The notes: generated from the letters alone by a model not told the origin. A stretch of 64,000 nucleotides of DNA from Oscillospiraceae bacterium (GCA_015065685.1 SVPU01000002.1:62001-126000); one strand, 5' to 3'. Shown: positions 20,287-26,603, counted from the first letter of the stretch. Numbers and translations: made by a program.

Positions 20287-21864
20287 TTACTCTTCCTCTT
20301 GTTCATCATCCTCTAAACCGATTAAATCATCAGTTTCTTCAGATTCGTCATAGTCTTCGTCCAAATCTTCAGTTTCAGAAGCAAATGAGAAATTGTTTAA
20401 TGAAACACTTTCAAACGGTTCGCTATCAAAATCAAAGGTTTCGATTTCATCTTCAATATTGTTGTCGCGTTTAAAAAGTTTCATAACCACTAAAACAATT
20501 AATACAATAGCAGCCACGAGTAATAAAGTAACGCTGATAACAATAACTTTTGCATTAACTGTTAATGAACTGAATCTATCAAAGAAACCGATTTCTTCAT
20601 CATCAATCGGCGCATCGGTTTGTTTGAAAGCCTTGAGTTCGGGGAAACGTTGCAAAACATTCTCGGCACTATCATATCTATAGAAAGAGTATTTACCATC
20701 ATTATAGCAATAAATATAATAGAAATCCGAAAGCGCAGAATCGGAATCAGAATAGCAACAAACATCGAATCCATTGATTCTTGTGTTAGAACGGTAATAA
20801 TTCTCAGGTACTGCTAATTCACTAGGTAAATCGGCCAAAATATAAGTAAACTCACCCTGAGTAATATAGGCTAATTTAGTAAATGTTTCGGTTTCTTCAT
20901 CATAAGTAAAAGGAACAAATTCTTCACTACCATCGGCCTTTAGGTAGAAAATCTCATAATTTTCCGCTTCATCAACCGCAACAGTAACAGTAGTCCCTTT
21001 GAACTCTTTTTCTTTAACTGTGAAACCTTTAAACAACTGAATTGTTGAAATATCGGATATTATGGTGTAAGGCGCACCTTCAACAGTGGCAGCAAACGGG
21101 TCTTCCGATACGGTTGGCTCGTCGCTCGAAGTGGGTTCATCTGCGGTTTCGCTACGTGTAATATTAATCGTATAAGTCTTTTGAGTACCGTCAGGTGCAG
21201 TTACAACAACAGTGCGCGTGTTAAGACCGATTTGAAGCTTGGGGGTACCTGTAACCTCAACCTTTGCATTTGCATCAGCCGCTCTTGCAGATACTCGGCA
21301 CTCGGTAACAGAATTAGCAACTGCAACATCATAGGTTGTGCGGTCGGGCGAAAAACTAGGAGTTAATTTAATATTAATTAAAGAAAGTGCTCTTAGATTG
21401 GCATTGGAAGAAAGAGTTGCGTCAACCACAGATAAAGATGCTGATGCGCCTGCAATCGTAACATCTTTTAAATTTGGTGGAACTCCGTCCGACATGCCAC
21501 CACTTACTTTGATATTAGAAGAACCAGCTTTAAGAGCTTTGAATACCAGTTTATGACTAGATAAAGTAACAGGTTCGGCAACACTATGAGTAACATAAAT
21601 TTTAGCAACGCCAGCGCCGCCCCCAGTACCGCCACTAACATATTCTAAAACCTCAGGATTATAGGTAACCTCTAAGGTAACAACCGATATTGCCTCACCT
21701 TTTACCGAAACAGTTACATTAATTTCATCGCCCGGATTATAAGTTTTATTTTCAAAATTTATATAGGTTTCACCTTGAGCGAAACAATTTATTGGTAGTA
21801 TAGAAAGTGATAATACAAAAATAAAAACCAGCGATAAGACGATACTTAAAATTTTTCTTTTCAT
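20287..21864 (-). CDS. Membrane-anchored cohesin-like protein: signal peptide - cohesin-like domain - cadherin-like beta-sandwich - unknown region - TM - acidic cytoplasmic tail
   Basis: ETYINFENKTYNPGDEINVTVSVKGEAISVVTLEVTYNPEVLEYVSGG... (cohesin-like); LSSNANLRALSLINIKLTPSFSPDRTTYDVAVANSVTECRVSA...PDGTQKTYTINITR (cadherin-like beta sandwich); TM VIVISVTLLLVAAIVLIVLVVMKLFKR; tail DEDYDESEETDDLIGLEDDEQEEE. Confidence 0.8.
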   Translation of the reverse strand: MKRKILSIVLSLVFIFVLSLSILPINCFAQGETYINFENKTYNPGDEINVTVSVKGEAISVVTLEVTYNPEVLEYVSGGTGGGAGVAKIYVTHSVAEPVTLSSHKLVFKALKAGSSNIKVSGGMSDGVPPNLKDVTIAGASASLSVVDATLSSNANLRALSLINIKLTPSFSPDRTTYDVAVANSVTECRVSARAADANAKVEVTGTPKLQIGLNTRTVVVTAPDGTQKTYTINITRSETADEPTSSDEPTVSEDPFAATVEGAPYTIISDISTIQLFKGFTVKEKEFKGTTVTVAVDEAENYEIFYLKADGSEEFVPFTYDEETETFTKLAYITQGEFTYILADLPSELAVPENYYRSNTRINGFDVCCYSDSDSALSDFYYIYCYNDGKYSFYRYDSAENVLQRFPELKAFKQTDAPIDDEEIGFFDRFSSLTVNAKVIVISVTLLLVAAIVLIVLVVMKLFKRDNNIEDEIETFDFDSEPFESVSLNNFSFASETEDLDEDYDESEETDDLIGLEDDEQEEE

Positions 21865-21906
21865 AACAAAACCTCATTTATAAGAAATAATGTAATATTT
21901 AATATA

Positions 21907-23709
21907 TTATAAAGGATATTTAATCGGGTCATATAAATACCAAACCAATAAACCAATATCAGCTGCGGTAATTTTTCCATCGTTATTAACATCAGCATTT
22001 CTTTTACCAGAAGAAGATAAACCATATTTATTAGAATCATATAAATGCCAAATAATTAAACCAATATCAGATGCAGTAATATTACCGTCGTTATTCGTAT
22101 CACCCTTGTTGTATGTTGGTTGAGGTGGCGCAGGCGGCTCAACGGGAGGTGAAACCGTTGTAACTGTGAGCTTGCAAGCGGTATCTGCAAAAACATTTAT
22201 AAAATAATTTGTAACATAACCTGTCTCGGCAGAAACCTTCAGTGAAATCAGATTATATCCTGCATTAATGTTGAAATAAGGCTGTCCCGCATAAGAAGCA
22301 TTCACAACCGGTTTAACATAAATGCTTGCATCACCGTTTAGATACAAATCGTAACTGTAATTATACATTGAGAAAGACGGTGTGAGGCCTATAGCAGAAA
22401 TGTTCTCAAAATAATAATTATTTTTATAGGAATTTTTTATTGGTTGATTTGAAACAACATCAGGCATTGATGAAAAAACAGGAATTTTAAAGTTCAACAC
22501 AAAATCGGTTGCATCCTGATAGGTTTTAGCAAGTGATACACCTTTCGAGCGCGCATCATGAACTGCCTGTGCATATTGATGCCACAAACGGTCGGGATTA
22601 TGGACATTGAAATCTTGATAATAATAAGTATCCTGTCCCGATGAGATATAGTTGTTCGAAAGGAATTTCGCACCACCGATAATAGCAGCCGAGCGTGTGT
22701 TCCAATTTTCTTGCTTAGCACGTTTTAAACCGTTAAGCAAAACTGCTGAAGCATCTCCACCAGAGGCACCGATATTAAAGAAATTATAATATCCGTAATA
22801 TTCATTGTTAGCACCGGTATACACGCCGGAAACCATATTACTAACACTCGTTCCAATTTCTTGGCGGATTTTTGAAGCTAATATATAAGGGCTAACACCC
22901 GAGCTTTGTGCAGCAGCCATAATAACCTTTGCATAAGAGCCTCCGTAAGCCGTGTCGTTAGGGTCGTTATAACCGTTTTCCATAAAGGTGCCTTTAATAA
23001 TTTTTAAAACACCCGCTTCATTTTGAACGGCAGGGTTATACCCTTGTTGCAAGAACATATAAATTTCGCTCGAATTAAGGAAGTTGCGCGGGTCCATATA
23101 ATAAGCAATGAGTTCTCTTGAAGCAGCTGCCCAATTACCGTTAGTTACAACCCACTCATTCTTAGACCAATCAAAAGCACCGGGTCCCATAGAAAGCCAA
23201 GAAATCGCATCTGAAGAGAAGCTTGTTTGTTTTCGCATATTAATCGACTGCAGTGCAACCGCCTCATCAAATGTCATAGCAACGGGATCGGGAATAAAAT
23301 CCCAATTAGGATACGCTGCATGAAGTGAACGCAATGCATTGTGATAGCTTGCAGGAAAGGCTTGTAATTTGGTTTCAAAATCACCGTCGGGGTTATATGT
23401 TACAATTCTAATATATGACGGATCGTAAAATATATATCCCGTTACTTGCTGTGTTCCGTTATGGTATGTAATCTGATACCAGATGCTATCACCCGTTTGA
23501 ACAGAGGAAAGAACGGTAGCGCTGGTATAGGAAAGCTTCTCAATTACAGGAAATGTTGTTGCAGGGCCTGTTCTAACATTAACATTATCGCCCTCGATAT
23601 ATGCAGTGGTTACTGTTGCAGCAGATGTGAAATTGCAGCTATAAAGTGCCGAAGTGAGAAGCAACACAACCGCTAAAAAAACCGATAATGATTTTTTAAA
23701 ACTTTTCAT
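21907..23709 (-). CDS. Secreted SH3b - glucosaminidase (GH73-like) - beta-sandwich - Pro linker - type I-like dockerin protein
   Basis: SH3b: AYIEGDNVNVRTGPATTFPVIEKL; glucosaminidase: PSYIRIV...AYYMDPRNFLNSSEIYMFLQQGYNP...SKIRQEIGTSVSN...YYNFFNIGASGG; dockerin: GDTNNDGNITASDIGLIIWHLYD...ADVNNDGKITAADIGLLVWYLYDPIKYPL. Confidence 0.9.
   Translation of the reverse strand: MKSFKKSLSVFLAVVLLLTSALYSCNFTSAATVTTAYIEGDNVNVRTGPATTFPVIEKLSYTSATVLSSVQTGDSIWYQITYHNGTQQVTGYIFYDPSYIRIVTYNPDGDFETKLQAFPASYHNALRSLHAAYPNWDFIPDPVAMTFDEAVALQSINMRKQTSFSSDAISWLSMGPGAFDWSKNEWVVTNGNWAAASRELIAYYMDPRNFLNSSEIYMFLQQGYNPAVQNEAGVLKIIKGTFMENGYNDPNDTAYGGSYAKVIMAAAQSSGVSPYILASKIRQEIGTSVSNMVSGVYTGANNEYYGYYNFFNIGASGGDASAVLLNGLKRAKQENWNTRSAAIIGGAKFLSNNYISSGQDTYYYQDFNVHNPDRLWHQYAQAVHDARSKGVSLAKTYQDATDFVLNFKIPVFSSMPDVVSNQPIKNSYKNNYYFENISAIGLTPSFSMYNYSYDLYLNGDASIYVKPVVNASYAGQPYFNINAGYNLISLKVSAETGYVTNYFINVFADTACKLTVTTVSPPVEPPAPPQPTYNKGDTNNDGNITASDIGLIIWHLYDSNKYGLSSSGKRNADVNNDGKITAADIGLLVWYLYDPIKYPL
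21910..22113 (-). other. Dockerin module (two F-hand Ca2+-binding repeats)
   Basis: Repeats DTNNDGNITASDIGLIIWHL and DVNNDGKITAADIGLLVWYL both have the D-x-N-x-D-G-x-I-x-x-x-D loop; preceded by PPVEPPAPPQP linker. Confidence 0.93.
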
Positions 23710-23857
23710 TAAAATACCTCACAAATAAATTTATGAAACATACAAATTTATTATATCTTTTTTCGGCAAATGTGTCAACCGAATTCGACAAAAAAATATT
23801 ACTAAAATTCCCAATAATTACAAAAACGACCTTACTTTTCGTAAAGCCGTTTAAATA

Positions 23858-25859: not shown

Positions 25860-26603
25860 CTATTTGTAGCACGAAAACTCGATTGCTGTAATTAAATCGT
25901 CAACCGGATTAATATAAACCGTGATGCCGTTTCTACGGTCTTTTTTAGTAACAAAATAATCAAGATAATATGATGTATCAGAAACCTTATAGAAATGTGA
26001 TGGGGTTCCCAATGTATCAACAATATCTGTTATTGCCATTGTGTTTGTAATACCATTAACAGAAAAACTGTTATATGCAGCATTGTTTAAATAAAAATCG
26101 TTCATAATTTTGAACTTAACTATATTACAATCTTTAATTTTTCTTGAAGAGCGCGATGAATTAAAGAATTGTGCATAAATTTTCGCACCATTTTCATTAA
26201 TGAAAACCACATCAACAGTCTCATAAGTGAAAATGAGTGAATTTCCATCATAAGCATTTCCCTCTGCGATTTGCCAACCAATCTCTTCAAGCTTGCTCAT
26301 TCTCATTGGAACAGTAAATTCATCGCCAGCAAAGGTAGCATCAATCTCGAATTTCTTGCCGAGATAAATATTCGCATAATTTTCTTCATCAAAAAGGCTG
26401 ATATCAAAATAATTAGACATTACTCTATCGAGAGACATAATTGTAGTGTCAACATTTTCATCAGCGATATTTTCGGCTTCCTTATCAGTAACCTCCTCCA
26501 CCGAGGAAACACCGTAGTCATCATCAACAGGACTACACGCCGCAGCAGAAAAAATCAAAAGAACCGAAATAATAAGACAAAATATTTTAGTGGTTTTTTT
26601 CAT
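25860..26603 (-). CDS. Putative lipoprotein of unknown function
   Basis: Lipobox signal peptide MKKTTKIFCLIISVLLIFSAAACSPVDD. Confidence 0.65.
   Translation of the reverse strand: MKKTTKIFCLIISVLLIFSAAACSPVDDDYGVSSVEEVTDKEAENIADENVDTTIMSLDRVMSNYFDISLFDEENYANIYLGKKFEIDATFAGDEFTVPMRMSKLEEIGWQIAEGNAYDGNSLIFTYETVDVVFINENGAKIYAQFFNSSRSSRKIKDCNIVKFKIMNDFYLNNAAYNSFSVNGITNTMAITDIVDTLGTPSHFYKVSDTSYYLDYFVTKKDRRNGITVYINPVDDLITAIEFSCYK

Follow-up and report, generated by a model that had tools for sequence, protein, structure and literature searches.

A putative non-cellulosomal cohesin-dockerin clasp linking a glucosaminidase-type wall hydrolase to a membrane protein encoded beside it

Two adjacent genes, here called A and B, in a 64,000-nucleotide window (the whole stretch of DNA that was analyzed) likely encode a dedicated, non-cellulosomal cohesin-dockerin clasp that holds a glycan-strand hydrolase at the membrane, a reading to which we assign a probability of roughly 0.76. 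The domain identities, the operon layout, the conservation of the pair, its one-to-one occurrence in reduced genomes, and the replacement of enzyme or dockerin in relatives are shown by computation; binding, catalysis, and the stage of wall metabolism at which the pair acts are inferred. Research on cohesin-dockerin pairs has dealt almost entirely with their part in holding polysaccharide-degrading complexes together, and the present reading, if true, would place the module in the service of the cell's own envelope, through a conserved pair that is often the only one in small genomes. A minimal, non-cellulosomal use of the interaction, docking a wall enzyme to the membrane, had been proposed in an earlier sequence-only reading of the window; that proposal is supported, with binding still an inference for which there are no binding data.

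B lies downstream of A on the same strand, with 42 nt separating the A stop from the B start, and a GAGG ribosome-binding site precedes the ATG of each gene. The layout is as follows, in coordinates of the window:

21907..23709, minus strand: gene A, secreted SH3b - SagB/LytG-type glucosaminidase (GH73-like) - dockerin protein, 600 aa
20287..21864, minus strand: gene B, signal peptide - cohesin - cadherin-like - unknown ectodomain - transmembrane (TM) helix - acidic tail, 525 aa
23750..23778, minus strand: sigma-A promoter, TTGACA-17-TATAAT, 12/12 consensus, ~40 nt 5' of the A start codon
20252..20281, minus strand: intrinsic terminator directly 3' of B, 13-bp stem followed by a T run
23824..23852, minus strand: intrinsic terminator belonging to the preceding gene, 5' of the A promoter

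Judged by this arrangement of promoter and terminators, A and B likely constitute an operon of only two genes, transcription being inferred from the sequence. The strong terminator 3' of B stands between B and its downstream neighbor, bofA. An upstream DUF1015 gene and a downstream bofA-addB pair are common to many loci of the genus (at least twelve other loci have bofA-addB 3' of B); this synteny is a genus-level neighborhood, and other families have different neighbors. The sequence-only reading had described adjacent, co-directional genes with a 42-bp gap and a GAGG site each, all of which held to the exact coordinate; the 12/12 promoter and the flanking terminators had been missed.

The product of gene A comprises a signal peptide, an SH3_3 domain, a glucosaminidase core, a divergent stretch (in some homologues a cadherin-like match), a proline linker, and a two-repeat dockerin, and it has no anchor of its own other than the SH3b domain:

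23428..23589, minus strand: SH3_3 domain of A, residues 41-94 (Pfam E 3.3e-6)
22510..23142, minus strand: glucosaminidase core of A, residues 190-400 (NCBIfam SagB E 1.2e-16; profile match to 6u0o_B E 2.6e-27)
21934..22107, minus strand: two-repeat type I dockerin of A, residues 535-592 (Pfam Dockerin_1 E 3.9e-12, both Ca loops canonical)

The core belongs to the SagB/LytG-type glucosaminidase fold family and retains its conserved Glu; when the A family profile was compared with solved structures, SagB (6u0o_B, E 2.6e-27) and autolysin E (E 2.2e-25) were matched. Residue E284, within the motif RQEIG, is shared by at least 90% of the 57 homologues and is likely the catalytic acid, although activity is inferred from sequence alone. 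The dockerin matches PF00404 across positions 1-56 of 57 (E 3.9e-12) and meets the criteria for a type I dockerin; its Ca loops are GDTNNDGNITASD and ADVNNDGKITAAD, in which D537, D541, D548, D573, D577, and D584 are at least 90% conserved among A homologues, and the domain is present in 56 of the 57 aligned homologues. The secreted SH3b/glucosaminidase with proline linker and two-repeat dockerin that had been described earlier is thus upheld, except that the suggested match to PF01832 failed: a Pfam search of the A protein gave no match to the catalytic part with that model, and NCBIfam SagB matched instead.

Gene B encodes the presumptive anchor, whose parts were located as follows:

21415..21765, minus strand: cohesin of B, residues 34-150 (Pfam E 3.3e-4; leave-out family HMM E 4.9e-27; hhalign 97.1%)
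21154..21381, minus strand: cadherin-like beta-sandwich of B, PF12733, residues 162-237 (E 1.5e-13)
20635..21081, minus strand: ectodomain of B, termed BCT, residues 262-410 (from alignment; a conserved, uncharacterized family marker)
20476..20538, minus strand: C-terminal TM helix of B, residues ~443-463 (hydropathy and alignment)
20290..20475, minus strand: cytoplasmic acidic tail of B (net charge -26)

That the N-terminal domain is a cohesin is very likely, the evidence being weak by Pfam and firm by profile comparison. Against PF00963 the single protein scored 21.3 bits (E 3.3e-4), below the cut-off of 24.1, and 24.2 bits, above it, in the whole-genome search. The B family profile, when set against solved cohesins, matched 3l8q with an E of 6.3e-10 and aligned with the NagJ cohesin of Clostridium perfringens (2jh2) across nearly its full length (E 6.6e-4), and hhalign comparison of the B cohesin profile with 18 strong cohesins from congeners gave a probability of 97.1% (E 6e-11), whereas the cadherin-like and BCT domains, used as controls against the same congener profiles, reached ~3% or less. 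In six-fold cross-validation, a cohesin-type domain was found in all 62 aligned B proteins. The signal peptide, cohesin-like N-terminal domain, and C-terminal TM helix claimed by the sequence-only reading therefore held, and the lack of any significant cohesin match, which it had named as grounds for refutation, is not borne out by profile comparison. The BCT ectodomain had no match in the PDB at E<=1 and none in Pfam.

The pair is conserved in many Clostridia. In 60 of 70 same-genus genomes (62 when contig breaks are counted), A and B stand side by side in the same orientation, which answers the co-occurrence check proposed at the outset, and 65 such pairs were found in total, in 63 genomes. 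Because the A and B homologues across the genus share a protein identity of just ~25 to 61%, the arrangement has outlasted much sequence change. Among the other ten congeners, two have contig breaks with the dockerin end still directly 5' of B, two have B truncated by a contig end, and three, all incomplete genomes, lack the pair and addB as well; the addB region is present without the pair in a further two, and B is present without A in the last. Beyond the genus, pairs were found in two genomes that represent two further families of the order, and in a metagenome-assembled genome titled Bacilli (L071), whose A protein ends in a good dockerin. AlphaFold2, run with alignments of two sequences (the protein of the window and that of L071), returned no usable model for A (mean pLDDT 32) or for B (mean pLDDT 45). 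Paralogues of A that reach the dockerin region and have no adjacent B were found in six dockerin-rich genomes, an observation that weighs against the clasp reading. One contig scan yielded a single distant relative.

Whether the dockerin of A is dedicated to the cohesin of B was addressed by counting both modules in profile searches. The genome that carries the window (1.48 Mb, 24 contigs, 91% complete) contains three dockerins and three cohesins at three places; the two dockerins and two cohesins other than those of A and B are combined in two large surface proteins that also have a TM segment and carbohydrate-binding-like repeats, and these two further cohesins are possible alternative binding sites for A. 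No multi-cohesin scaffoldin was found in this genome by PF00963 search, and none of its dockerins apart from that of A is carried by a recognized glycoside hydrolase, so that the many dockerin CAZymes and the scaffoldin elsewhere in the genome that would have refuted the earlier proposal are not in evidence. Twelve pair-bearing genomes have one dockerin at E<=0.001; in all 12 the sole dockerin is that of A, and in nine of them the sole cohesin is that of B. One of these single-dockerin genomes is 99% complete in ~10 contigs. One genome of another family also has just one dockerin, and the protein that bears it adjoins B.

Dockerin sequences were compared within three congeners that carry 29-32 dockerins each (G019, G052, and G034), using 19, 10, and 10 others, respectively, which are part of each set, and leaving out catalytic domains. 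These other dockerins share a mean identity of 64-89% among themselves and motifs such as NGRDYALLIQYINGW or NNKDLTRLFQYLSDW. The A dockerins share at most 38-45% identity with the other sampled dockerins of their own genome and up to 54-80% with the A dockerins of other species; among the dockerins sampled in these three congeners, the A dockerin is thus a distinct sequence class. Conventional cellulosome or amylosome membership of the pair was considered and rejected, given the three-plus-three modules of its own genome, the one-plus-one count in nine congeners, and the distinct dockerin class. In a partial mirror-tree analysis of 55 pairs, the dockerin-cohesin correlation was 0.198 (8 of 1000 permutations were as high), against 0.032 for the dockerin and A's own catalytic domain; this signal is supportive only, because it is small and nearly equaled by the dockerin-BCT correlation (0.192).

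Further evidence comes from a survey with the BCT profile, which, among the 388 genomes and 220 genera of the class that were sampled, placed the B family in 32 genomes and 17 genera, and beyond the class in two further genomes of the phylum. BCT proteins are often encoded just 3' of a dockerin protein. A GH73-type enzyme with a dockerin lies directly upstream of B in 13 of the 32 genomes; in three, all of one family, a SpoIID/LytB-SH3-dockerin protein adjoins B in place of the glucosaminidase, and in one more a dockerin protein with partial coverage lies 5' of B. Eight genomes of one genus (f67) and a ninth genome, G440, have a GH73-type enzyme without a dockerin beside B. Two others showed no partner within the stretch read, two ended at contig boundaries, and two, whose neighborhoods were not read, were left out of the partner tally. 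The cohesin-BCT genes of both genomes beyond the class likewise have a dockerin protein 5' of them. In one congener SLH (S-layer) repeats stand in place of A's dockerin. The exchange of the enzyme with clasp and anchor kept, like the exchange of the clasp for another surface anchor, fits a role of the dockerin in attachment. Glycan strands are the substrate of SpoIID/LytB and SagB-type enzymes alike, which points to the wall and not to food polysaccharides.

The survey also revealed lineages in which the clasp is incomplete. In three genomes (G440 among them), B has a recognizable cohesin and no dockerin was detected anywhere by PF00404 search, and dockerins are likewise absent from nine of ten f67 genomes. 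In f67, the A-like enzyme lacks a dockerin and the BCT protein is still adjacent; the N-terminus of B aligns marginally with the cohesin profile (64%, E 6e-5), and co-loss of the cohesin with the dockerin is not inferred, as this N-terminus is still weakly cohesin-like. The dockerin-less B genomes count against the clasp reading; undetected partners, or another use of the cohesin domain, may account for them.

Under the proposed mechanism, both proteins would be secreted, and B would be retained in the membrane by its C-terminal helix, presenting its N-terminal cohesin on a cadherin-like/BCT stalk, either beneath the wall or inside it. The Ca2+-loaded C-terminal dockerin of A would clip onto this cohesin, and the SH3b-glucosaminidase would thereby be held at the membrane, where it may act on glycan strands at the point at which new strands emerge. 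The role would most likely be vegetative, with new glycan strands trimmed or released in growth or separation, as by SagB with SpdC. In Staphylococcus aureus, the membrane protein SpdC (LyrA) directs the glucosaminidase SagB, and glycan strands are shortened and released (PMC12272431); the A core is of the same fold family, and the outcome, a glucosaminidase held by a membrane protein, would be alike. There are also differences: B, unlike the CAAX-protease-type SpdC, is a single-pass cohesin protein; attachment would be through dockerin and cohesin; and A, with 60.8 bits where the SagB cut-off is 425, is not a SagB orthologue. With no such orthologue in A and no CAAX protease (SpdC-type) domain in B by Pfam search, the pair falls outside the SagB-SpdC system, although it may still work alike.

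Other known systems offer partial parallels. The NagJ and NagH enzymes of C. perfringens (PDB 2ozn; also 2jh2, 2o4e, and 2jnk) are non-cellulosomal secreted enzymes joined by cohesin-like and dockerin modules; the B cohesin aligns at nearly full length to that of NagJ, and the A dockerin profile to 2jnk. NagJ and NagH both act on host glycans. Unlike them, A and B would pair a peptidoglycan-type hydrolase with a dedicated, adjacently encoded membrane anchor. In the Ruminococcus bromii amylosome, for which Ca2+-dependent docking of dockerins to whole cells has been reported (PMC5814915), as in the Limousia mucinolysome and in cellulosomes, dockerin enzymes are received by cell-surface cohesins. 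These systems, however, are nutrient-degrading, many-enzyme assemblies with sortase-anchored scaffoldins, whereas A and B would comprise one enzyme and one TM anchor, with a separate dockerin class and, by inference, the cell's own wall as target.

Three alternative explanations merit consideration. The pair might be one exit of a larger cellulosome-like network, in which the A dockerin binds scaffoldin cohesins and the B cohesin anchors dockerin CAZymes or scaffoldins. Dockerins number up to 36, and cohesins up to 14, in some congeners, the genome of the window itself encodes two proteins that combine CBM-like repeats, dockerin, cohesin, and TM segment, and R. bromii and Limousia employ cell-bound cohesins for such networks (PMC5814915, PMC12997984). 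This explanation is nonetheless unlikely in view of the nine genomes with one dockerin and one cohesin only, the separate class of the A dockerin in G019, G052, and G034, and the want of any own-genome dockerin, except A's, on a recognized glycoside hydrolase. A sporulation-specific hydrolase complex likewise seems improbable. It is favored by bofA as the downstream neighbor, by bofA-addB after B in other loci, and by the SpoIID/LytB enzymes that carry the same clasp in relatives; against it stand the pair's own 12/12 sigma-A promoter, the terminator between B and bofA, and a bofA-addB synteny that is limited to the genus, with neighbors changing in other families. Sporulation was rejected as the leading reading on the promoter and terminator evidence. 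As for the roles listed by the sequence-only reading, the sequence does not choose among growth, division, and separation, and sporulation is less likely because of the consensus vegetative promoter and the terminator that B has before bofA.

It is possible, too, that B is mainly a membrane regulator or partner of the hydrolase, acting through its BCT and cadherin-like domains, with the cohesin-dockerin contact an accessory gained or lost by lineage. In G440 and the f67 genus, the GH73-type enzyme that adjoins the BCT protein is dockerin-less, the dockerin correlates with BCT too (partial correlation 0.192), and the acidic tail hints at a cytoplasmic partner. On the other side, the dockerin is present in 56 of 57 aligned A homologues and the cohesin-type domain in 62 of 62 aligned B proteins, and the dockerin is kept where the enzyme becomes SpoIID/LytB. 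The regulator reading is compatible with the clasp reading and does not exclude it.

No description of this cohesin-dockerin wall-hydrolase pair was found in the open-access literature searched; subscription papers were mostly outside that search, and the absence is no proof. GH73-dockerin proteins have been recorded before, one in each of three Ruminococcus albus strains (PMC4081043, Table 3). Those proteins, however, were recorded as cellulosomal inventory, and neither a cohesin-TM partner gene nor a wall function is described for them in the relevant sections of that paper; non-cellulosomal cohesin and dockerin modules have reportedly been reviewed (Peer et al. 2009, cited in PMC4081043). 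Should the clasp reading be true, it would provide a function for the orphan dockerins and cohesins of non-cellulolytic genomes, a simple one-to-one system in which to test the membrane confinement of wall hydrolases in Gram-positive bacteria, and, for genome annotators, a reason against counting such genes as cellulosomal. A bolder reading, which could as readily prove wrong as right, is that of a widespread house-keeping branch of cohesin-dockerin pairs in Clostridia, wherein a dedicated clasp tethers peptidoglycan glycan-strand enzymes that can be exchanged for one another (a glucosaminidase, or else SpoIID/LytB), and the anchor is a single-pass BCT protein whose cytoplasmic tail is acidic; this branch would be distinct from the cellulosomes with which the same lineages degrade nutrients, and may predate them.

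Lastly, the cadherin-like domain, the conserved ectodomain, and the strongly acidic cytoplasmic tail of B had all escaped the sequence-only reading. The tail may provide a link to a cytoplasmic partner, a tentative suggestion; an FDxV-like motif occurs in 33 of 61 B tails, against 10.4 expected in shuffled tails (uncorrected for relatedness).

Across the congeners, which all belong to a single genus, the number of dockerins per genome ranges from 1 to 36 (examples being G019, G052, G034, G061 and G007). Because this number varies so widely within one genus, elaborate dockerin systems appear to have been acquired or lost repeatedly, with the pair of glucosaminidase-dockerin gene A and cohesin-membrane anchor gene B staying constant. 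The window's own genome (G000) also encodes two large surface proteins that carry both modules:

L008:4443-10037 (G000:C18), large surface protein, 1864 aa
L009:6223-10893 (G000:C13), large surface protein, at least 1556 aa

In each, carbohydrate-binding-like repeats (including CBM_4_9 in one of the two) come before a dockerin that adjoins a cohesin without any gap, and beyond the cohesin lie a cadherin-like domain and then a transmembrane segment; the dockerin and cohesin may form an intramolecular unit. An ABC sugar transporter lies near the L008 protein, and glycyl-radical enzymes near that of L009.

Short single-cohesin proteins, with a strong cohesin in an open frame of about 165-240 aa, are common among the congeners and were not found in the window's own genome; two examples are as follows:

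G006:C53:636-1013, short single-cohesin protein
G023:C6:31051-31425, short single-cohesin protein

The cytoplasmic tail of B (window 20290-20475, compared with 60 homologues) is mostly acidic, in many cases strongly, and an FDxV-like motif recurs in 33 of the 61 tails versus 10.4 expected from shuffled tails, uncorrected for kinship.

Variant arrangements were also observed. In L108 (G002:C71), the A homologue bears three S-layer homology repeats where the dockerin would be, and the adjoining B lacks the cadherin-like domain. At L217, L218 and L221, a protein with cohesin and BCT (the conserved uncharacterised ectodomain of B) adjoins a SpoIID/LytB-SH3-dockerin protein, and a second cohesin-BCT gene lies nearby on the same strand in all three. 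L073 (G047:C67) encodes an additional protein of 365 aa between A and B, its N-terminus resembling the cohesin region of B. Second B paralogues without A (L102, L109 and L110) lie immediately 3' of homologues of one window gene:

25860-26603, lipoprotein-like gene of the window
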